NCBI GenBank assembly: GCA_016201275.1
Contig: JACQDB010000125.1
Span: 1 to 64,000 of the forward strand
Direction of reading: 5' to 3'
Length of the DNA: 64,000 nucleotides
Source: Acidobacteriota bacterium
GTDB lineage: Bacteria; Acidobacteriota; Blastocatellia; UBA7656
The notes beneath the pieces were generated by a model. That model had not been told where the DNA came from. It searched no databases and saw only the letters and a list, made by a program, of their open reading frames with translations. The position numbers and the translations under genes are program-made. Numbering within the stretch: the stretch's first letter is position 1; each line of letters opens with the position of its first letter. Positions 4,282 through 62,518 of this stretch are shown here, one piece after another.

Positions 4282-4562
4282 GTAGTGGAGCAATGCGGAG
4301 AGAGGGAGTTTGGCGTTGCGCCTTCCGACGGTTTTATGGTTTGCGACAGCCGCCGCCTTCGGGCCAATGGCGTTAAGTTGTACCGCAGACTGTCTAGTCT
4401 GCGGCTGACAGCAGCAAGCTAAGACTGGGATTTTGCACGCTTCTGCCACCAAGCCCGCCGCCGGCTAGACCGCCTGCGGTACATCTATGCCGCTTCACTT
4501 CATGCCATTGGCCTGTAGGCGCAACGCCAAACTTTTCTTTTCTCTCCTCTTTGACCCACTAC
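4282..4562. repeat. Long palindromic repeat family C, copy 1
   Basis: About 280 bp, beginning GTAGTGGAGCAATGCGG and ending TTTGACCCACTAC. Large parts are self-complementary, including GCAGACTGTCTAGTCTGC and GGCTAGACCGCCTGCGG. Copy 2 at 13215-13505 shares the same blocks in the same order, with small insertions and deletions. No coding capacity. It resembles a MITE or a degraded insertion-sequence derivative. Confidence 0.75.
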
Positions 4563-9238: not shown

Positions 9239-10297
9239 TTATTTCGATTTTATTTTCTTCGGCGGCTTCTTGACTTGAATCTTTGGACTCAAGCGCTTGA
9301 CGGTAACTTTATCGGGACTGGAGCGCGTCACTTCATAAGCGACCGCTACGGTCTTGCCGTTTTCATCGAGTTCCTGAATCGTGAAGCCTTTGCGTCCCGA
9401 AGGTGTTCCCAGCGTTACCGGCAACACGCCGCGCAAACCGTCATCCAGACCACCATTGACATAACGCCCCACTTCGGGCGAGTAATTCAAAAACCACAGG
9501 CGCGTGAAATCTATAGGCCCTTCGGTGGTCACGCTCTTCATCAAGCCGATGTAGTTATTTTTTATCTCGCCTTTTTTAGTTCTCGACTGATCGTACACCA
9601 CCCAGCCGGTGAAGCGTCGCCCGTCGCCTTCGAGATGCAGAATCTCGTCCGGCACGTCCAGTTCAACCTGCTGCGCGCCAATCCACCCGGCGCGTAACAC
9701 TTCCGAATCGGGCATACGCACCTGCAACCACAATTGCGTCTTGACCCCCGTATCATCATCGGCGTCATCGGCGTCGGCGTTGTCCGTGGCGGCTTCCGGC
9801 TTCACCGTGGTGCGGGCTTTGCCGACGATCTCGACAATCGTGCCGCGATTCAAGTACGTCACCACATCGCCGCCTGCGTTGATGCGAAGTTTGGCCTGCA
9901 CCTTCAAACGCCCTTGGCCTTGCGAAGGCAAATCTTTGGTCTGTTGAAAGAGCGCTTCTATGCGGTCTATTACCGATTTATTGACCACATAACGGGCTTC
10001 AATCCAGCCGCTGTCGCCTTTGACGGTTTTGACTTTGTACCACTCTTCAATGCGCGTGGGAGTTTTGACTTCGGCCTGTTCGTAGATGTCCAAACGGTCG
10101 CCGCGTTTTAATTCGGCAACCGGCAAGGCCACCATAGCCGTAGAAGAGCGCAGGATCGCTTTCGGTGCGATAACCACGCCATCATTAATCTTGGCGCTGC
10201 TGCCGACCAGGTTGCAGCTCGTCAACAGCAGGCTACAGAATACGAGTGACAAACCGGCGAGAGAGAAATTTTTTATGCGCGAAACATTCAATGACAT
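9239..10297 (-). CDS. SH3-domain lipoprotein
   Basis: 352 residues. The signal peptide ends in lipobox LLTSC (Cys about 28). Two bacterial SH3-type segments follow: residues about 45-105 (SSTAMVALPVAELKRGDRL...WYKVKTVKGDSGWIEARYV) and about 130-205 (LRINAGGDVVTYLNRGTIVEI...RAGWIGAQQVEL), split by an acidic insert. The C-terminal half (about 215-335) is unassigned and ends in a Lys/Pro-rich tail (VKKPPKKIKSK). SH3b modules usually bind peptidoglycan peptides or partners, so an envelope role is inferred. The ribosome site is weak. It may be read from the promoter of the gene upstream (10432-10887) past a hairpin. Confidence 0.75.
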   Translation of the reverse strand: MSLNVSRIKNFSLAGLSLVFCSLLLTSCNLVGSSAKINDGVVIAPKAILRSSTAMVALPVAELKRGDRLDIYEQAEVKTPTRIEEWYKVKTVKGDSGWIEARYVVNKSVIDRIEALFQQTKDLPSQGQGRLKVQAKLRINAGGDVVTYLNRGTIVEIVGKARTTVKPEAATDNADADDADDDTGVKTQLWLQVRMPDSEVLRAGWIGAQQVELDVPDEILHLEGDGRRFTGWVVYDQSRTKKGEIKNNYIGLMKSVTTEGPIDFTRLWFLNYSPEVGRYVNGGLDDGLRGVLPVTLGTPSGRKGFTIQELDENGKTVAVAYEVTRSSPDKVTVKRLSPKIQVKKPPKKIKSK

Positions 10298-10370
10298 AGG
10301 ATAAATTCACTACAAACAGAATTGCTGAGGCCAGGCGTTGGGGACGCACAGGCGCGGGTGCAAAGCGCCT

Positions 10371-10413
10371 GACGAAAAGCGACAAGACGGTGAGCGGCTT
10401 ATCGCTTTTCGCC
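10371..10413 (-). terminator. Hairpin after small secreted protein gene
   Basis: Stem CGAAAAGCGA / TCGCTTTTCG with a 19-nt loop, just downstream of the minus-strand gene ending at 10432. There is no clear T-run, so terminator function is tentative. Confidence 0.4.
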
Positions 10414-10431
10414 TGATGGGGAAACCCTGCT

Positions 10432-10887
10432 TCAGGATTGCGGAGCCGCGCTCTTCAACTCCTGTAACAGCGAACGCACCGCCGCCGCATCTTTCTTGCG
10501 CCAGGCGTCGGCCACGGCAGCCGCCTTTTTGCGTAACTCCACATCCGTGCCGAGCGAGCAACGGGATTTCGTATCATTCCACAACAAGCCGCCATTGATG
10601 ATCTCTTCGGGGCGACCTTCATAAGCCATCAAGGGGTCTTTTTCCGCCATTTTGACGAGATGATCCAGGCACGCCTGCACGCCTTTGGGGACACCGGCCA
10701 TGTGCATAGACGCGGCTTTTTTGGCTTTGGGCTTTTTGGCTTTGGCTTTTTGGGGCGCAGCCGTTTTGGCCGGTTCAGCCGGTTTCATCTGATCTGCCTG
10801 ATTGGTTCCAGCATTGGCGACTACAGCAACACCAAGTAAGAAGACTACACTTAGGCTCAACAACACTTTCATCATTTTATCCTTCAT
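10432..10887 (-). CDS. Small secreted Lys/Ala-rich protein
   Basis: 151 residues. The signal peptide (MKDKMMKVLLSLSVVFLLGV...) ends near VANAG, and the ATG has GGAGG at 7-8 bp. A low-complexity PAKTAAPQKAKAKKPKAKK linker leads to a helical domain with two Cys (VQACLDHLVKM and SRCSLGTDV) that could pair. I do not recognise the family. The basic linker could contact the cell wall or nucleic acid outside the membrane, but this is speculation. Confidence 0.75.
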   Translation of the reverse strand: MKDKMMKVLLSLSVVFLLGVAVVANAGTNQADQMKPAEPAKTAAPQKAKAKKPKAKKAASMHMAGVPKGVQACLDHLVKMAEKDPLMAYEGRPEEIINGGLLWNDTKSRCSLGTDVELRKKAAAVADAWRKKDAAAVRSLLQELKSAAPQS

Positions 10888-11753
10888 TGAGAAACCTCCA
10901 TTAGTGATTGTGCAGCCGCGCTAGAGCTACGATTGGCTATAGTGAGGCCGACAGTTTACGGTTCAGCTATAAAGATAGCGCAATGCTGCGAAAATCTCCA
11001 TTTACAGAAAGCAAAATCCGCCTGATGACAGCGATGATTTTATCAGCGTCTCCGCCCGCCGCCCGCCGCAACAGCTTTTCGCACACCAAGGTAACAGCAA
11101 GCTCTGTGCGGCGAAACTTTGCTTTCCTCTGCAACGAGAGCCGCGCTTGCGACGCCTTGCCGTAGCTTGATCGGTCATAAAATTTCTACTGCCTGAGCAG
11201 GGAAACTTACACAATCCGCGACCGCTGCGCTGTTAGCTGTCAAGGTGCGGGGTTGCTTGCACCAATGATTGGCGACCGTCATAGCGAATGCTTGGTGCGG
11301 TAGCGCATGGGCGAGGGCGTACTAGCGCTTCTTCAAACGATAGGAACTTGACATGAAATTTACGCGACCATAAAATTGAGGCAATCAAGTGAGATTAAAA
11401 TGACTTATTCGTTCGATACTTGATTGAACCAGCATGGGAAGCCACTGCGCCTGAAATTTTGCACAACTTGATTGTCACAAGTTAGGCAAGATGCTTATTA
11501 AGAAATTGCTGAAGCTGTTTAACCATGGCTTCACCCTCCTGACACCAACGAAACAGGTGTTAGGAGCGAAGAGATTTTCCGGGTCATCTTAACTTCTAGA
11601 GCGGTTTTTGTTTGAGATTACGGAAACCTCAAACCCGTTGAGCGGCGGTCGAAGACCGCTGCTCAACGATAGGGGGTTCAGTACACCCATATGAAAACCG
11701 CTCTAAGAGCGTTCAATAGAATACGCCTGTGATTTCAGTGGATAGGAGCAACC
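10888..11753. other. Noncoding region with repeat B copy 2
   Basis: No convincing gene on either strand; short open frames near 10908-11214 lack ribosome sites and recognisable sequence. It holds repeat B copy 2 (11597-11705). The 3' part feeds the small HTH gene at 11754. Confidence 0.5.
11597..11705 (+). repeat. Palindromic repeat family B, copy 2
   Basis: Begins TAGAGCGGTTTTTG and ends AAAACCGCTCTA. It carries the GTTGAGCGGCGGTC / GACCGCTGCTCAAC hairpin without the internal duplication found in copies 1 and 3. It lies 48 bp upstream of the small HTH gene and may supply or disturb its promoter. Confidence 0.85.
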
Positions 11754-13214: not shown

Positions 13215-13505
13215 GTAGTGGGTCAAGGAGGAGAGAAAAGAAAGGTTTGGCGTACCGCCTTCAGGCCAATGGCGTTAAGTTAAGAAAAACGGTACCGCAG
13301 ACTGTCTAGTCTGCGGCTGACAGCGGCAAGCTAAGACTTGGATTGCGCGCGCTTCTGCCACCAAGTCCGCCGCAGGCTAGACCGCCTGCGGTACCTCTAT
13401 GCCGCTTAACTTCATGCCATTGGCCTTCAGGCGGCGGCTGCCACAAACTATAAAACCGTCGGAAGGCGGTACGCCAACCTCCCTCTCTCCTCCTTGACCC
13501 ATTAC
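13215..13505. repeat. Long palindromic repeat family C, copy 2
   Basis: Begins GTAGTGGGTCAAGGAGGAG and ends CTCCTCCTTGACCCATTAC, so the outer ends are a near-perfect inverted repeat. The interior shares the GCAGACTGTCTAGTCTGC and CTAGACCGCCTGCGG blocks with copy 1 (4282-4562). It ends 26 bp before the start codon at 13532. Confidence 0.75.
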
Positions 13506-32103: not shown

Positions 32104-32193
32104 TGAGCTTCACTTTGATTGACCGCCTGCCAAATCTTTTCCGGCCTCAAGGGCATATCCAGATGACGCACGCCGAAAGGCGGCCACGAATGC
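32104..32193 (-). pseudogene. coxL 3'-end remnant
   Basis: About 90 bp encodes FGVRHLDMPLRPEKIWQAVN plus a short tail and TGA, matching the C-terminus of the intact coxL (YGVRHLDMPLRPEKIWQAVN). The DNA blocks GATTGACCGCCTGCCAAATC and GCATATCCAGATGACGCACG are identical in both. It starts right after the BrnA-like stop. It marks the duplicated border of the module between it and coxL. Confidence 0.8.
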
Positions 32194-32511
32194 TCAAGCG
32201 CGACTTTGGGCAAGCGGGGCTTTGCGTTTGGTTTTCCGCTTTTTTGGAACCAGCGGAATCAGACAGCGCAACGCTTTGTTGACGGATTCCGAATCGGGAA
32301 AATATTCGCGCACATCGCGCTCCAACATCACTGCGCCATCTTCCAGCGTGAAATGCTGCACGATGGTCGAGCCGTCGTTTTGGTGAATGGTTACCGTGTG
32401 ACCTTGGCGATAGGCTTTATAGTGCTTGCCACGAACGCCGCCTCTGAAATCATATTCGGGCAGCATTTCATCAACCTCTTCTGCTATTGGTTTAGAATCT
32501 TTTTTCTTCAT
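32194..32511 (-). CDS. BrnA-like antitoxin candidate
   Basis: 105 residues from ATG 32511, overlapping the end of brnT by 20 bp. The sequence EMLPEYDFRGGVRGKHYKAY, FPDSESVNKALRCLIPLVPK is typical of the protein that follows BrnT-like toxins in cyanobacteria and other phyla. The FPDSESVNKALR end is a ribbon-helix-helix-like DNA-binding segment. It should bind and neutralise BrnT and repress the pair (known for BrnA, inferred here). A basic tail is encoded up to the coxL remnant. Confidence 0.65.
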   Translation of the reverse strand: MKKKDSKPIAEEVDEMLPEYDFRGGVRGKHYKAYRQGHTVTIHQNDGSTIVQHFTLEDGAVMLERDVREYFPDSESVNKALRCLIPLVPKKRKTKRKAPLAQSRA

Positions 32512-32776
32512 ATATTTCTCGTTCCCATTCAGTTGCCTTGCGACCACTGATGAGTCGAATACGATCTCCGCGCTGCGTATAAACGACCACTAGGATTCGC
32601 CCCTTTGTAGAGGTTCCTATATCAACAAATCGTTCTTCAATCCTCGAATGTTTGGGGTCATCTATCGTGATGGTGAAGGGGTCGTCAAAAACGGTTTTCG
32701 CCTCGTCAAAACTGATCTTATGGCGTTTGAGATTCGCTTTGGCTTTCTCTTCGTCCCATTCAAAATTCAAATCCAT
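32492..32776 (-). CDS. BrnT-family toxin
   Basis: 94 residues from ATG 32776. BrnT hallmarks are FEWDEEKAKANLKRHKISFD, EAKTVFDDPFTITIDDPKHS, RIEERFVDIGTSTKGRILVV, VYTQRGDRIRLISGRKATEW, EREIYEE. This RelE-like fold is a ribosome-independent or ribosome-linked RNase in known members. It sits 61 bp downstream of coxL and in the same direction, before its overlapping partner. Confidence 0.9.
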   Translation of the reverse strand: MDLNFEWDEEKAKANLKRHKISFDEAKTVFDDPFTITIDDPKHSRIEERFVDIGTSTKGRILVVVYTQRGDRIRLISGRKATEWEREIYEEKRF

Positions 32777-32836: not shown

Positions 32837-35239
32837 TCAAGCCTGATTGACCGCCTGCCAAATCTTTTCCGGCCTGAGTGGCATATCCAGATGACGCACG
32901 CCATACGGCGACAGCGCATCTACGACTGCGCCGACTACAGCGGGAGTTGCACCAATCGTTCCGGCTTCGCCTACGCCTTTGACACCCATAGGATTGACCG
33001 GCGAAGGCGTCTCCGTTCGGTCCAGTTCCAGATGCGGAATCATCGCCGCTTTCGGCAGCGCGTAATCCATCAGGGTTCCGGTGATGAGTTGGCCTTGCTC
33101 GTCATAGACCACTTCTTCATAGAGCGCCTGGCCGATGGCCTGCACGATGCCGCCGTGAATTTGGCCTTCGACGATCATCGGATTGATGACCTTGCCGCAA
33201 TCGTCAACCGCTACGTACTTCACAATCTTAATGTCGCCGGTCTCTTTATCTATTTCGACCACGCAGATGTGTGTGCCGAACGGAAAGGTGAAATTCGTCG
33301 GCTCGAAGAAATGCGTAGCCGACATTCCCGGCTCCATTCCCGGCGGCAATTCTCTGGCGATGTGCGCCGCCAGCGCGATGTCTTGAATCGAGATTTGCTT
33401 GTCTTCAACATTCGGTTCCGGCAAGGCTGCGGCGGGTGCTTCGCTGACCGGCACATCTGGGTCGGAAACCCCGCCTGCCACAGAAGCGGCTCTGGTAGCC
33501 GGTTTCGAGAACTTGCCTTCTTTGAACGTCACACTTGAAGCATCGGCTCCGAGCATATGCGCGGCGATTTGTTTGGCTTTCTCTTTCAATTTTTCAACCG
33601 CCAGAAATACCGCTGTACCGCCTACGGCGATGCCGCGACTGCCGAACGTGCCTATGCCGTATTGCACGATTGCCGTGTCGCCATGAATCACCGTCACATC
33701 TTCAAGCGCGATGCCAAATTCATCGGCGACGATCTGCGCGAACGATGTCTCTTCGCCTTGACCGTGCGGCGAAATGCCCGTCAACACGGTGACTTTGCCA
33801 GTCGGTTCGATTCGTACAGTGGCGCTTTCCCAACCGCCTGCGGGCATCGCCTGCGACGGGCCGAGGGCGCAGATTTCTACATAAGTCGAAACGCCTATGC
33901 CGACGATGCGGCCTGCGTCGCGGGCTTGTTTCTGCATCTGGCGCAAGCCCGTATAATCGGCCATCGCCAAGGCTTTATCGAGCGCGCCTTGATAATTGCC
34001 GCTGTCATAAGACAAGCCAGTTTTGGTGGCAAATGGGAATTCATCGGGCTGCGGAAAATTCCTGCGCCGCACCTCAACCACATCCATGCCCAATTCGGCA
34101 GCGACCAGGTCAACGGCGCGTTCGATGACATAGGTCGCTTCGGGGCGACCCGCGCCGCGATACGCATCGGTAGCCATTTTGTTGGTGAAGCAGGCGGTGA
34201 TGTTCATCTGTATTGCAGGGATTTTGTAACAGCCCGACAGCATCAAACCGGTCAAGGTAGGAATCGCCGGAGTTAGCAATTGAAGATACGCGCCCATGTC
34301 TGCGAAGACGTTATAGCGCAGTCCGGTAATTTCGCCATCGTTCTTGCAGCCGATTTCGATGTAGCCAACTTGACCGCGTCCGTGAATCGTCGCCTGCATA
34401 TTTTCGCGCCGCGTTTCAATCCATTTCACCGGCTTATTCAGTTGCATGGCAATCCAGCCGAGCAAGGCTTCTTCGGCATAGACGTTGAGTTTCGAGCCGA
34501 AGCCGCCGCCGACCTCCGGGGTGATGACGCGCAGTTTGTTTTCCGGTATGCCAATCATAATGGCAAGCTGTGTGCGTAAGAGATGCGGAATTTGTGTCGA
34601 AGACCAGACGGTGAGTTCCTGTTCGCCGGGAAAGTAACGCGCCAATACGCCTCGCGGTTCCATAGCGATGGGTGCAAGGCGTTGATGCACGACGCGCTGC
34701 TTAATAATTTTGTCGGCTGCACCGAGCGCCGCTTCGATGTCGCCTTCGCCGGAGGTTAAGCGATAAGCGATGTTGTCGCCATATTCTTCATACACCAAAG
34801 GCGAGCCTTCTTTGGCGGCTTCTTCGACATCAACGACAGCGGGTAGTTCTTCATAATCCACCATGATTAAATCAATCGCATCACGCGCCGCATACTTGTC
34901 GGTAGCGACGACGGCGGCGAGGGGTTGACCGACGAACACCGCATGGTCATTGGCGAGTACGCGATAATCCGGCACTTTCAAATCCGGCAAGGCCCCTGCA
35001 CAAGGCACTGCGCCGACTTTATCGGCCACGTCTTTGCCTGTATAAACGGCGACGACGCCGGGCGCGGCAAGCGCTTCGCTGGTGTCTATGCCGGTGATGT
35101 GGGCGTGAGCGTACATCGAGCGCAGAAAGGCGACGTGCAGGGTGTCCGGCAATTTGATGTCATCCACATAATGCCCTATGCCTTGAATCAAGCGCGGGTC
35201 TTCGGTGCGTTTTATTTTTTCTCCAACATATTTCGCCAT
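32837..35239 (-). CDS. coxL: Form II CoxL-like molybdenum hydroxylase large subunit
   Basis: 800 residues. Molybdopterin-binding motifs include VGGGFGSK (243-250), the active-site loop AYRGAGR (359-365) and VKGVGEAGTIGATPAV near the C-terminus with the catalytic Glu. AYRGAGR marks form II; CO-oxidising form I has AYxCSFR. The substrate is therefore probably an aldehyde, purine or other small molecule rather than CO. A Pro/Ala-rich insert (VPVSEAPAAALPEPNVED) lies near 590-610. The C-terminal codons are duplicated beyond the BrnT/BrnA pair. It is preceded by the four-helix-bundle gene and its heptamer array. Confidence 0.93.
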   Translation of the reverse strand: MAKYVGEKIKRTEDPRLIQGIGHYVDDIKLPDTLHVAFLRSMYAHAHITGIDTSEALAAPGVVAVYTGKDVADKVGAVPCAGALPDLKVPDYRVLANDHAVFVGQPLAAVVATDKYAARDAIDLIMVDYEELPAVVDVEEAAKEGSPLVYEEYGDNIAYRLTSGEGDIEAALGAADKIIKQRVVHQRLAPIAMEPRGVLARYFPGEQELTVWSSTQIPHLLRTQLAIMIGIPENKLRVITPEVGGGFGSKLNVYAEEALLGWIAMQLNKPVKWIETRRENMQATIHGRGQVGYIEIGCKNDGEITGLRYNVFADMGAYLQLLTPAIPTLTGLMLSGCYKIPAIQMNITACFTNKMATDAYRGAGRPEATYVIERAVDLVAAELGMDVVEVRRRNFPQPDEFPFATKTGLSYDSGNYQGALDKALAMADYTGLRQMQKQARDAGRIVGIGVSTYVEICALGPSQAMPAGGWESATVRIEPTGKVTVLTGISPHGQGEETSFAQIVADEFGIALEDVTVIHGDTAIVQYGIGTFGSRGIAVGGTAVFLAVEKLKEKAKQIAAHMLGADASSVTFKEGKFSKPATRAASVAGGVSDPDVPVSEAPAAALPEPNVEDKQISIQDIALAAHIARELPPGMEPGMSATHFFEPTNFTFPFGTHICVVEIDKETGDIKIVKYVAVDDCGKVINPMIVEGQIHGGIVQAIGQALYEEVVYDEQGQLITGTLMDYALPKAAMIPHLELDRTETPSPVNPMGVKGVGEAGTIGATPAVVGAVVDALSPYGVRHLDMPLRPEKIWQAVNQA

Positions 35240-58264: not shown

Positions 58265-58273
58265 TCACGCGGC

Positions 58274-58565
58274 GTTACCTTGCTGCGTGAGAGGCGAGAA
58301 TGGCTGGTGCAAAATATCGCCCTGACGAATCGAGGTGGAATAATTTCGATGAAGGATACATCAATACCGGAAGCGGATTGGAAAATCTGGCGGTGGCTGA
58401 AGAATTCGCCCTAGAGCGGTTTTGGTTTGAGATTACGGAAACCTCAAACCCGTTGAGCGGCGGTCGAAGACCTTCGCACGGTCGAAGACCGCTGCTCAAC
58501 CATAGGGGGTTCCGTACACACTTATGCAAACCGCTCTAGGTTTGGTGTCGCCACATGGGATTGAT
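58274..58565 (-). pseudogene. M14 peptidase 3'-end remnant split by repeat B
   Basis: On both sides of the repeat B copy, DNA matches the end of the intact M14 gene: GGTTTGGTGTCGCCACATGG on one side and GAATTCGCC on the other, reading NPMWRHQT and GEFF. Past GEFF the match fades, with a weak FHLD match in a shifted frame. It is a diverged, non-functional duplicate. Confidence 0.7.
58412..58538 (+). repeat. Palindromic repeat family B, copy 3
   Basis: TAGAGCGGTTTTGG...CAAACCGCTCTA with the internal GGTCGAAGACC duplication. It sits in the M14 remnant. Comparing with the intact M14 copy (GCCTTGGGTTTGG against GCCC-TA[element]TA-GGTTTGG) shows a TA target duplication. Confidence 0.9.
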
Positions 58566-58798
58566 GGCCCCTGTTCTTTTTTAAGATGAACCCCCAAGGG
58601 GCGCTCAATTCCTTTGCCTCGTGCCTGTTCAACAATCGGTACAGGGTTGTCTCCGTATCCAATAAGACGACCTCCATCAAGCCCCACCCACGGACCGGCA
58701 TATTCACTTTGAGGCTCGGCAATCCAAGCCATCTCACGCGAACGGTCAATGTAAGGCCAGCGTGATTTGCGAATTTCCGGCAAGGTTCTTTCCTGCAT
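58496..58798 (-). CDS. DUF5678-like protein with repeat-coded C-terminus
   Basis: About 100 residues from ATG 58798 (start uncertain; the frame is open to 58921). The core EYAGPWVGLDGGRLIGYGDN, PVPIVEQARGKGIERPLGVH follows the DUF5678 pattern also seen at 42690. The last 14 codons (RAVCISVYGTPYG and stop) are read from repeat B. The C-terminus has therefore been replaced after insertion. No aspartyl-protease-like partner is left. Confidence 0.6.
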   Translation of the reverse strand: MQERTLPEIRKSRWPYIDRSREMAWIAEPQSEYAGPWVGLDGGRLIGYGDNPVPIVEQARGKGIERPLGVHLKKEQGPSIPCGDTKPRAVCISVYGTPYG

Positions 58799-58931
58799 AA
58801 CCGTTGACTCCCCGTGCCAGTGTAAGACGAAACGCCGGTCACTGAAAAATAGAAAACTATTGGGGAAAAAGCGCGGCAAGCGAGCCTGCAACATCACTCT
58901 CTGCCGCACTTCATGCGTCAATAAAACTCAA

Positions 58932-61900
58932 TCACTGCTGGTTATCCTCGTTGATGCCAGCGGCAGCCGGTGGGCGAGCGCCTTTATCGCTGACGCCAGC
59001 ATCGAGGTGGTTGAAATTCAAGGCGGCGTTGAACAGCAAAAAGAATTCGCCTTGGGTTTGGTGTCGCCACATGGGATTGGTGGCGAACAGCACGACGTGG
59101 CCTTTGCCTACGGGAACGTCTATGACGGCGGGTCGGCTTACCAGTTCGCTGCCGCCCGCCAGCATTCCGCTGACCAACAAATTTCTTTCATCCGGGACGA
59201 AACGCAAGACCACACGCGGACGCATATTCGGTGGCGGCAGCGCTGCCGCGAATTGGCGAAACTCTTCGGGTATGCCGTCAGGGCTTGGCGCTTGCGGTTT
59301 TAATACTGGCGGCTGCGGCATCCCTTGAACAATGTCCGGGTCGGTCTTCGAGCCGCGACCGGAAACTCTGTCGCCGCCGCCTGCACCAACTTGAGCGCCG
59401 CCACCGCCACCACCACCAGCGCCAGCGAAGCCGCCAATACTGCCGACATTGAACAACGGCGCGCTGCTGAAATAGATCGCCAATGAATCGTCGTAGCCGT
59501 AAGCTATGGGACTCTTCTTATCAGTAAACGTGGCGTTGAATACAGAGCCTTGCGCTACGAGTTGCCGCGCCGGTTGAATCGTCACGCCCGAGGTGATGCC
59601 GTAATCAATGGTCAAACTTGCCATCGTGGTGATTGGCACGAACAAGCCGCCGTCTTCGATGAAGCGTTGCAGATTGGCCATGCCTTTCAACTCTATGCCG
59701 CCGCGCATATCGTTGGTGGTGTCTGGCGACATCCCTAAATTCGGCGTCAGGTCGGACTTCATCCAAGGAATCGGGTCGCCGGTTTTCGGCAGGCCATTGA
59801 CGATGGTCTGCGCCGTGCCGCCGACCGGCGGAAAAATAATCACATCGTATTTGTCGCGCAGGCTCAACGTATCACGAATTTCATGCACGGAGATGTACTT
59901 GTACGGAATGCCATACTTGTCGAATTCAATTCGAAACCAGCCTTCATTCTGGGTGTTCGTCCAAGTGTGCAAAATCGCTATACGCGGTACGGCCAGTTCA
60001 TGCGTTTTTACTTCGGGCGCTTTATCCACAGCGGTCGCCGTCAAACCTAAATCACTCACCGCCGCTTCAAGCTGTTGGCGCAAACCCGTCGCGTTGCCTT
60101 CAGACTTGATGATGAAAGAGCCTGCGTTGAATTGGCGGTCGCCGATTTTGAAGCTGTCTTCGGCGGCCAGCATCTTGACGTTCGGCAATTTGTAACGCAG
60201 CGTCATCAACGTATTGTCGGTGTTGTGATTGATGACGAAAGCGGCGGTGTGCGCGCCTTCCAACTTGCCTTTCACTTTGGCGTCGCTGGTCAACATCACC
60301 ATAGGCGCGTTCAGCACGCTCTTGTCGGTGACGCGAATGGTTTTGACATTCCGCATAGCGCCGAGCGTCCAGCCGGTGTCGTCATAAGGGCGCGGGTCGT
60401 TGACGTTGTAATACTGGGTGTCGAGCATCATATCGGCCATGCGCGAATAGGGCTGATCCATGCGTATGAGGTAAGACCCCGCCGGATATTTCTTGCCCAA
60501 GACCTCGAACTCTTTGGTCGCGGTGTTGACTTCAACGCCCATCAAGCGCAGCAGGTTAACCATGTCCGCCGCTTCAACCGGGCGCGTGTCGTTGCCCGGT
60601 ATGACGTAGGCATAAGGGCCTTCATTGGTGGCTTTCAAAATCGAGCGCTTGCTCTTGATATAAAAATTTTTGAGGAAGCGGTCTTTTTCGTTAGCGACTT
60701 CATTCATGGCAAACAGTATGGCCGATTGCTGCATATTGATGTTGTTGCGTATGGACCAGTTGACGCGGGCGAACGGCGGATTCGGGCGATACCAATCACG
60801 CGCTGCTTGCGCCCCGACATTGCGTATGCCGGTGTCTGCGCCGTTGCCGCCAAAGGTCTCGTAAAAACGGCCTATCGAATTATGCCCGTTGGCAACATAG
60901 AACATATAATTCGGTGCCCAGCCATCATAAAACCCATGCGTCCAGACGCCCGGCACGCCGCGCTTGGTCATCTCTTCAATCTCTTTGTAAGCCAGCGCGT
61001 GCCATTCATCAATCACCAACGGGTCAAGCCAGGCGTTGTACGGGCCAGTGCCTGTGGAGGTGTAGAGGAACGGCACAGACTCGTGCAAATCATGCAGCAC
61101 CTGCGGGTGATATTCCAGAAAGGTCTTCATCTGATTGCGCGACAACGCCAGCGCCATGCCTAAGCCGTCGCGGTTGTTGTCGTGCGCTACGTACTGGCCC
61201 CAGTACAACAGATTCGGCGCTGGTTTATTGGGATTGGCTTTGCGGTAGTTGTAGATGTCCACCATCTTGTCGCGCCCGTCCACCTCCAGTGTAGGCGTAA
61301 TCATCACGATGACGTTTTTGCGAATCTCATTGATGAACGGCGAGTCTTCAACGGCAAGGCGATAGGCCAACTCCATCAGCATTTCGGGCGAGCCGGTTTC
61401 CGGAGAATGAATCGAACCCGAAGCCCAGTAAAACGCTTTGCCTTCTTTAATCAAGGCTTCGGCTTCGGCGTCGTTGATGCGGCGCGGGTCTGCGAGTTTG
61501 CCGGTGATCTCTCTGTAGCGGTCAAGGCGCGCCAGATTGGCTTCATCGCCGACCAGAATCAATAACTGCTCGCGGCCTTCTTCGGATTTTTCCGGGGCCG
61601 TAAAGACACGCACACGCGGCGTGGCTTTTTCCAACTCACGATAATAGCGGTACTGGTCTTTGGTGTAGGTGAGTTTGTTGGGCGTGCCTATGGCATAGCC
61701 TAAGACTTTTTCCGGCGTCGGCACTTTGTCCGAAGCGGGCAGATGGTCAACCAGTTCGGTGAGAAAAAATTTCTCTGTGGTGTACTCTTTGATCTTTGCG
61801 GTGTAGGCGTCGTCCAGTTTTTGCGAGGCCGTGGGTTTGGCTTTGTCGGCCTTCTTTTGCGGCGGTTGGACGGCGTAGCCGATTACTGGAAAGGTGGTGA

Positions 61901-61952
61901 GCAGCACCAGGGCGCACGCTTGCCTGAGCGCAGATGAACGTCTTCGAGTCAT
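58932..61952 (-). CDS. Secreted M14-family metallopeptidase
   Basis: 1,006 residues from ATG 61952 (GGAGGAG 5 bp upstream). The signal peptide ends near GYAVQ. The carboxypeptidase domain carries zinc ligands HSPE (182-185) and the third His in VLHDLHES (287-292). A long C-terminal part follows with a Gly-run (AGGGGGGGAQ, about 880-890) and a GATase1-like segment (VPRIAILHTWTNTQNEGWFR, DVIIFPPVGGT). Its last codons are duplicated at 58274-58565 beyond a DUF5678 gene. Predicted periplasmic or extracellular exopeptidase. Confidence 0.88.
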   Translation of the reverse strand: MTRRRSSALRQACALVLLTTFPVIGYAVQPPQKKADKAKPTASQKLDDAYTAKIKEYTTEKFFLTELVDHLPASDKVPTPEKVLGYAIGTPNKLTYTKDQYRYYRELEKATPRVRVFTAPEKSEEGREQLLILVGDEANLARLDRYREITGKLADPRRINDAEAEALIKEGKAFYWASGSIHSPETGSPEMLMELAYRLAVEDSPFINEIRKNVIVMITPTLEVDGRDKMVDIYNYRKANPNKPAPNLLYWGQYVAHDNNRDGLGMALALSRNQMKTFLEYHPQVLHDLHESVPFLYTSTGTGPYNAWLDPLVIDEWHALAYKEIEEMTKRGVPGVWTHGFYDGWAPNYMFYVANGHNSIGRFYETFGGNGADTGIRNVGAQAARDWYRPNPPFARVNWSIRNNINMQQSAILFAMNEVANEKDRFLKNFYIKSKRSILKATNEGPYAYVIPGNDTRPVEAADMVNLLRLMGVEVNTATKEFEVLGKKYPAGSYLIRMDQPYSRMADMMLDTQYYNVNDPRPYDDTGWTLGAMRNVKTIRVTDKSVLNAPMVMLTSDAKVKGKLEGAHTAAFVINHNTDNTLMTLRYKLPNVKMLAAEDSFKIGDRQFNAGSFIIKSEGNATGLRQQLEAAVSDLGLTATAVDKAPEVKTHELAVPRIAILHTWTNTQNEGWFRIEFDKYGIPYKYISVHEIRDTLSLRDKYDVIIFPPVGGTAQTIVNGLPKTGDPIPWMKSDLTPNLGMSPDTTNDMRGGIELKGMANLQRFIEDGGLFVPITTMASLTIDYGITSGVTIQPARQLVAQGSVFNATFTDKKSPIAYGYDDSLAIYFSSAPLFNVGSIGGFAGAGGGGGGGAQVGAGGGDRVSGRGSKTDPDIVQGMPQPPVLKPQAPSPDGIPEEFRQFAAALPPPNMRPRVVLRFVPDERNLLVSGMLAGGSELVSRPAVIDVPVGKGHVVLFATNPMWRHQTQGEFFLLFNAALNFNHLDAGVSDKGARPPAAAGINEDNQQ

Positions 61953-62518
61953 AATCTCCTCCCTTGAATCAAGGTGGCGGAATCGGAAATTGCCAAGCAA
62001 GGAAAAGGTGAACGGTAGCGCTACGGAAAGCGACCAAAGCTTTTACTCAGTTTGCCTTTTACTTTTACCTTTTGCCTTTTTATGAGTGAAGTGGTCGAGC
62101 ACGCTCATGTCCGCGCCAGTGGAAGCACGGTCACGAACGCGCCCGTCTTGTGCCTAAGACTGAAAATGTTTTTCAGTGGTTACAAAATTTTTTTTCACGT
62201 CACAAATTTTTTTGGCGCAGCAAAATCCTGTCAGCCCTGACCACTTTTTGCAAGCCATAGACTTTCAGAAAAAGATTTCTTCTGCAACGATCTATACGGG
62301 CGACCCTGCGGTGGTTGCCCCTTCTTGAAATTGCATGACTTTGGGGCAGGGGCGACCACCGCAGGGTCGCCCATACAAGGCTGCGGTTGATTGCTCCAGA
62401 AAAACATTTTCTTAAAAGCTATAGATTGACAACGCCTACGCCTACGCCTTAGCGTATTTACCCCATCGCATATCATCTATGAAGTTGGCCTCGCGCACGC
62501 GCACGACAGGTAAAATTT
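61953..62518. other. Gap with repeat H and array
   Basis: No gene. Holds GCCTTTT/ACTTTT/ACCTTTT/GCCTTTTT (62049-62084), an array-like phrase with only a weak inverted partner (AAGGAAAAGGTGAA, about 62000), and repeat H. Confidence 0.5.
62296..62374. repeat. Palindromic repeat H
   Basis: Perfect 18-bp inverted repeat GGGCGACCCTGCGGTGGT (62298-62315) / ACCACCGCAGGGTCGCCC (62355-62372) with inner TGCCCC/GGGGCA. Similar GGGCGACC palindromes are known as dispersed repeats in other phyla. It may double as a hairpin upstream of the kinase gene. Confidence 0.7.

Follow-up and report, generated by a model that had tools for sequence, protein, structure and literature searches.

Second copies of gene ends flank small toxin-antitoxin and R-M modules in two genomes of an Acidobacteriota lineage

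In an Acidobacteriota genome and in one of its relatives, small gene modules lie between an intact gene and a second copy of the end of that gene, and most of the modules found in this position carry toxin-antitoxin or R-M genes. The entry point to this pattern is an M14 zinc carboxypeptidase-like gene in a 64,000-nucleotide stretch of contig JACQDB010000125.1 (hereafter the window). As a single case the M14 locus is unimpressive, and it is the recurrence of the pattern that carries the value. The best explanation, which we hold at about even confidence, is that an anchored import of foreign DNA, through homology-facilitated illegitimate recombination (HFIR) or an equivalent, left the scar seen at the window locus, and that the same process has acted at many genes. 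It has long been asked how toxin-antitoxin modules that lack a transposase move between chromosomes. Should gene-end scars mark landings, each supplies an anchor gene, two joints and a record of donor versus recipient, and the process becomes countable and datable in any genome.

The M14 gene and the second copy of its tail

The features of the M14 locus are as follows.

58932..62000, minus strand: M14 zinc carboxypeptidase-like gene, the intact anchor (Pfam PF00246, 30.6 bits)
59055..59084, minus strand: copy T of the repeated block, within the M14 3′ end (self-search of the window)
58569..58798, minus strand: DUF5678 gene, ending about four codons short of its natural end (Pfam, 15.3 bits; comparison with G006)
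58539..58568, minus strand: remnant T′, first part, INPMWRHQT (match to 59055-59084)
58412..58538, no strand assigned: MITE of 127 bp within the remnant, with TA..TA ends and TIR TAGAGCGGTTTT../..CCGCTCTA (copies compared across the genome)
58265..58411, minus strand: remnant T′, second part, GGCGAATTC (GEFF) followed by decayed M14-tail-like sequence (alignment, p = 0.002)

The M14 gene has orthologs in five relatives that are 74-77% identical to it. The initial annotation had described its 3′ end as duplicated beyond a DUF5678 gene, and a second copy is indeed present: in a self-search of the whole window, T′ matches T at 29 of 30 bp (97%, E = 4e-6), the repeat including its flanks extends to 37 bp at 89%, and the block translates on the minus strand to INPMWRHQT, which is the M14 motif. 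"Duplicated" is probably the wrong word, as the best-preserved cases elsewhere look like two alleles. Both of the remnants then reported, NPMWRHQT and GEFF (the latter at ~58403-58411), exist, but the 127-bp MITE between them had been missed. Because this element divides the remnant, a single unbroken remnant is ruled out. Past GEFF, the remnant aligns with the remaining M14 3′ end as far as ~58265, with a local score of 52 against 30.4 ± 5.5 in 500 shuffles, none of which reached 52; the entire M14 tail was therefore probably once present. An in-frame TAG already occurs in T′ at the point where the MITE landed.

The gene between the two ends was correctly recognized as DUF5678-like, but it is truncated, and its 15.3 bits fall below the Pfam (PF18929) cut-off of 23.2; a G006 protein with which its product shares 65% identity reaches 34.2 bits. 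The frame runs directly into the M14 remnant, so that the GGWL found at the C-terminus of its relatives is missing, and the join sits in GCCA(T/C)CAAT, a candidate microhomology common to both sequences at the window joint. The usual overlapping partner of DUF5678, a retropepsin-like gene in G006, is absent from the window locus. A search for DUF5678 neighbourhoods in named genomes returned only G006 (Chloracidobacterium sp. UBA7656 MAG), in which a DUF5678 and retropepsin-like (LDTGST motif) pair follows M14 together with a tandem copy at 78% (L036, 6877-8384, minus strand), and a C39-like peptidase gene then adjoins the tandem pairs. The two genes may together form a module that is so far uncharacterised.

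An ancient tandem M14 paralog, which had been named as the finding that would overturn this reading, gains no support as the source of the remnant: T′ agrees with its own M14 gene at 29 of 30 bp, the other M14 paralogs found in the genome are only ~30% identical at the protein level, and this origin was rejected. The window M14 case is real, old and damaged. Alone it cannot separate the models, since T and T′ differ at a single base in the well-kept block and donor and native copies are consequently indistinguishable.

The M14 ortholog of the relative G001 (L033; 8867-9804 and 8787-10378) bears two nested gene-end scars, a younger one inside an older one. The inner scar pairs a C39-peptidase module with 58 bp of repeated gene end (97%), whereas the outer scar involves DUF5678 and a 51-bp end copy at 88%. 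This placement of the more diverged scar farther out is the pattern expected from successive imports at one anchor. At silent sites, the T′ of the window agrees with the window M14 gene and the T′ of G001 with the G001 gene (CCC/CAC/ACC versus CCG/CAT/ACA), which suggests that the two events are probably separate; a remnant inherited jointly by both genomes was judged unlikely on the same grounds. When the neighbours of M14 were matched against relatives, none was found except one upstream protein, 45% identical, in G001.

A matching arrangement at coxL

The same geometry had been noted at coxL in the window, and the comparison is borne out, with a BrnTA module lying between the intact coxL end and a coxL remnant.

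32844..32910, minus strand: copy T, within the 3′ end of the coxL gene at 32837-35239 (window self-search)
32194..32776, minus strand: BrnT-BrnA toxin-antitoxin module, flanked by the two coxL ends (BrnT Pfam match 32522-32758, 99.8 bits)
32116..32182, minus strand: coxL remnant T′ (window self-search)

The remnant ends in NQSEAQ* and the intact gene in NQA*. Three of the four changed codons are synonymous, and at the nonsynonymous site the remnant has Phe, as do all relatives for which the tail was read, whereas the intact gene has Tyr. The remnant also overlaps the start of the next gene, so that the remnant side looks native. An empty site was sought in G001 and not found, the gene downstream of coxL there being unrelated. 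A fragment resembling the coxL C-terminus (47% identity, 50-aa frame) at G005:C407:1326-1433 is possibly another scar.

Gene-end scars recur around toxin-antitoxin and R-M modules

An unbiased scan for two-copy direct repeats 250-3500 bp apart covered 2.39 Mb of this genome (G000) and the relative G001, with tandem paralogs and repeat proteins set aside. The M14 geometry recurs repeatedly. The M14 and coxL loci apart, there are nine clear gene-end cases, eight of which carry toxin-antitoxin or R-M cargo.

L058, G000: 5′ end; small gene and PIN toxin
L115, G000: 3′ end of a MoeB-like gene; BrnTA
L135, G000 C25: 3′ end of uvrB; small gene and MazF
L110, G000: 3′ end of a small gene; protease
L068, G001: 5′ end of hemW; MazEF
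L070, G001: 5′ end; DUF433-DUF5615
L072, G001: 3′ end of an SDR gene; DUF433-DUF5615
L095, G001 9405-11438: 5′ end of an ABC ATPase gene, 102 bp, 82%; EcoRV-type endonuclease (PF09233, 371 bits) and D12 methylase
L157, G001: 5′ end of an SDR gene; small gene and PIN, VapBC-like

Across cases the scars measure ~40-115 bp. The inserts, of 0.4-2 kb, hold module genes only, and their insertion sites are unrelated; neither an integrase gene within the inserts nor a fixed attachment site or shared core sequence was seen. The proposal of a shared insertion route for small mobile gene units thus receives strong support from recurrence at many unrelated genes, mostly around toxin-antitoxin or R-M cargo. 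The route is not specific to 3′ ends, and a preference for them was rejected because 5′ cases are about equally frequent. At uvrB, the remnant is followed by a hairpin that appears terminator-like (judged by eye, unscored), which makes the remnant side look native here as well; 11 bases (TGGCAAGCGCA) are common to the start of the antitoxin and to the hairpin past the displaced uvrB end. The repeats L083, L069 and L106, also found in the scan, fall outside the clear gene-end class; at L106 (G000 C15, 3218-4438), a small gene and a gene for an HNH nuclease are enclosed by a non-coding direct repeat of 115 bp (97%).

We also compared upstream with downstream flanks of the toxin gene BrnT, drawing on seven genomes from the family. 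Of 29 BrnT loci, 5 are bordered by direct repeats, against none of 29 AhpC/TSA loci (Fisher p = 0.026) and none of 145 mismatched flank pairs; excluding the window itself leaves 4/28 versus 0/29 (p = 0.052). This comparison added gnd/BrnTA in G001 and glyA/BrnTA in G003. The fifth BrnT case, L185 (G004 C30; 523-565, 1732-1774), is a 43-bp repeat at 95% with no obvious gene end.

The best-preserved copies resemble alleles

The copies cease to be similar at the start or stop codon in 9 of 11 cases, as would be expected of two alleles and not of a random stretch that had been self-duplicated or copied at a staggered break. In several cases, the differences between the copies point in the same direction. 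The glyA copies show 13 changes in 66 bases, 10 of them at third positions; of the 10 codons affected, 7 still encode the same residue, each frame is open, and the natural tails differ (NL* versus NKWVSVP*). The three differences between the gnd copies all fall at third positions, and allele-like differences are likewise seen in the coxL, ABC ATPase and hemW copies. When all cases are pooled, third positions account for 56% of the changes, a proportion that exceeds one third (p = 3e-5) but not the 50% possible for a constrained T paired with a neutral T′ (p = 0.19). Judged from these comparisons, the downstream copy is more likely a displaced native end than a self-copy, and the codon-edge stops and allele-like copies together favour, without proving, anchored import from a donor over self-duplication. 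The genomes examined yielded neither a donor nor an empty site nor a mosaic gene.

Mechanism and alternative explanations

Under the anchored-import reading, foreign DNA would have carried a homologous M14 end beside a small module made up of DUF5678 and perhaps a retropepsin-like partner. Homologous recombination within M14 would have given the resident gene the incoming 3′ end, while the non-homologous end of the incoming DNA would have been joined inside the resident M14 tail by illegitimate recombination, leaving the native tail stranded past the module. Such a scheme corresponds to HFIR, although Campbell-type integration of a small circle carrying the module and a gene end would give an identical product. 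The stranded tail would subsequently have decayed and received the MITE, the DUF5678 module is itself broken, and the same process would have inserted toxin-antitoxin and R-M modules at many other genes. The one-sided homology of HFIR is observed, with gene-end homology at the anchor and unrelated DNA past the codon edge. The intact copy would then be of donor origin, and natural transformation is a candidate route; the genome encodes ComEC and DprA, both of which also occur in most control genomes. Counting against import are the narrow range of scar lengths, which random illegitimate joining does not predict, and the uvrB copies, whose similarity continues for 11 bp beyond the stop codon.

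A rival account is long target duplication, in which a staggered break leads to copying of a 40-115 bp target, so that both copies are resident and the outer one decays. Long, variable target duplications of ~100 bp are documented for R-M modules, above all in Helicobacter pylori (PMC3874152, PMC3031569, PMC1643837), a mechanism credited, as cited in these articles, to Nobusato 2000 and Furuta 2010. The direct repeats of 40-115 bp that flank the inserts agree with those reports in geometry and length scale, the copies at the window M14 gene, L070 and G001 T1 are 96-98% identical, and the uvrB repeat extends 11 bp past the stop codon. Set against this are the codon-edge limit of homology in 9 of 11 cases, the allele-like glyA, coxL, ABC ATPase and hemW copies, and Ku, which was sought in G000 and not detected. 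We regard this account as possible but doubtful. The ~40-115 bp scar length combined with allele-like differences is poorly explained by HFIR and by long target duplication alike.

Ordinary tandem duplication with later deletion, whether it took in the M14 tail and DUF5678 or the M14 gene as a whole, appears improbable. Such duplication does occur, as the tandem DUF5678-retropepsin module of G006 (78%) demonstrates, but it leaves the recurrence around toxin-antitoxin or R-M cargo and the codon-edge boundaries unexplained, and the M14 paralogs in the genome are too distant.

Still less probable is insertion of an integrase-type element that restores the gene end, its integrase acting in trans or since lost. 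Integrative islands at gene 3′ ends (tRNA, icd, guaA) leave an intact gene, an insert and a distal duplicate of the gene end, the classical signature of this process, and the remnants of the two M14 orthologs begin within a few bases of each other. Unlike such islands, however, the inserts described here are far too small and carry no integrase, and they occur at both 5′ and 3′ ends of many unrelated genes with no fixed site or common core sequence seen. Chance similarity or an assembly artefact is very unlikely: the strongest block is only 30 bp, but it has E = 4e-6, an independent counterpart exists at the G001 M14 ortholog, and the copies differ from one another.

Relation to known systems

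The insertions resemble those of H. pylori R-M modules in that a small selfish module is bordered by direct repeats of ~100 bp without a transposase. They differ in that the cargo is mostly type II toxin-antitoxin modules, and in that most repeats stop at a start or stop codon and the well-preserved copies differ as alleles do, which points to imported homologous DNA.

In naturally transformable bacteria such as Neisseria, small gene units termed minimal mobile elements are exchanged through recombination in conserved neighbours. These exchanges involve double homologous recombination and displace no gene end.

In the T6SS immunity gene arrays of Vibrio cholerae, HFIR is the proposed source of displaced 3′ ends (Kirchberger 2017, PMC5361080). 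There, as is proposed here, a module anchored on one side displaces the old 3′ end downstream, and events stack. The Vibrio arrays are confined to T6SS effector loci, whereas the present scars lie at housekeeping genes and at both gene ends, with toxin-antitoxin or R-M cargo and an anchor gene that stays intact.

Long target duplication (R-M modules, H. pylori) and HFIR scars (Vibrio) are known; new are the wide toxin-antitoxin cargo and the allele evidence. A literature search, with most subscription journals outside its reach, found no paper connecting toxin-antitoxin modules to gene-end scars. We tentatively suggest, as a speculative extension, that in this lineage a short end of a neighbouring gene might serve as the vehicle on which type II toxin-antitoxin and R-M modules spread without transposase or integrase. 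Each scar would again form direct repeats, which could allow a module to depart and to re-insert at that gene in other species.

The MITE within the M14 remnant

At least 40 copies of the 127-bp element were scored in the genome; a first look gave 224 candidates. In twelve full copies TA is present at each end while the flanks are unrelated, which identifies the element as a TA-target MITE inserted into the remnant; its TIRs, the TA at both ends, the many copies and the lack of a transposase correspond to the IS630/Tc1-mariner type. When it is excised in silico, the remnant reads ..CAAACC-TA-GGGCGAATTC.. against ..CAAACC-CA-AGGCGAATTC.. in M14, with length unchanged. The family (~127 bp) is represented further in the window at 2700-2826, and a shorter variant, ~81% identical, lies at 11597-11705. 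A repeat of ~170 bp (88%) at 4353-4521 and 13255-13433, which is also self-complementary, is likely another MITE family.
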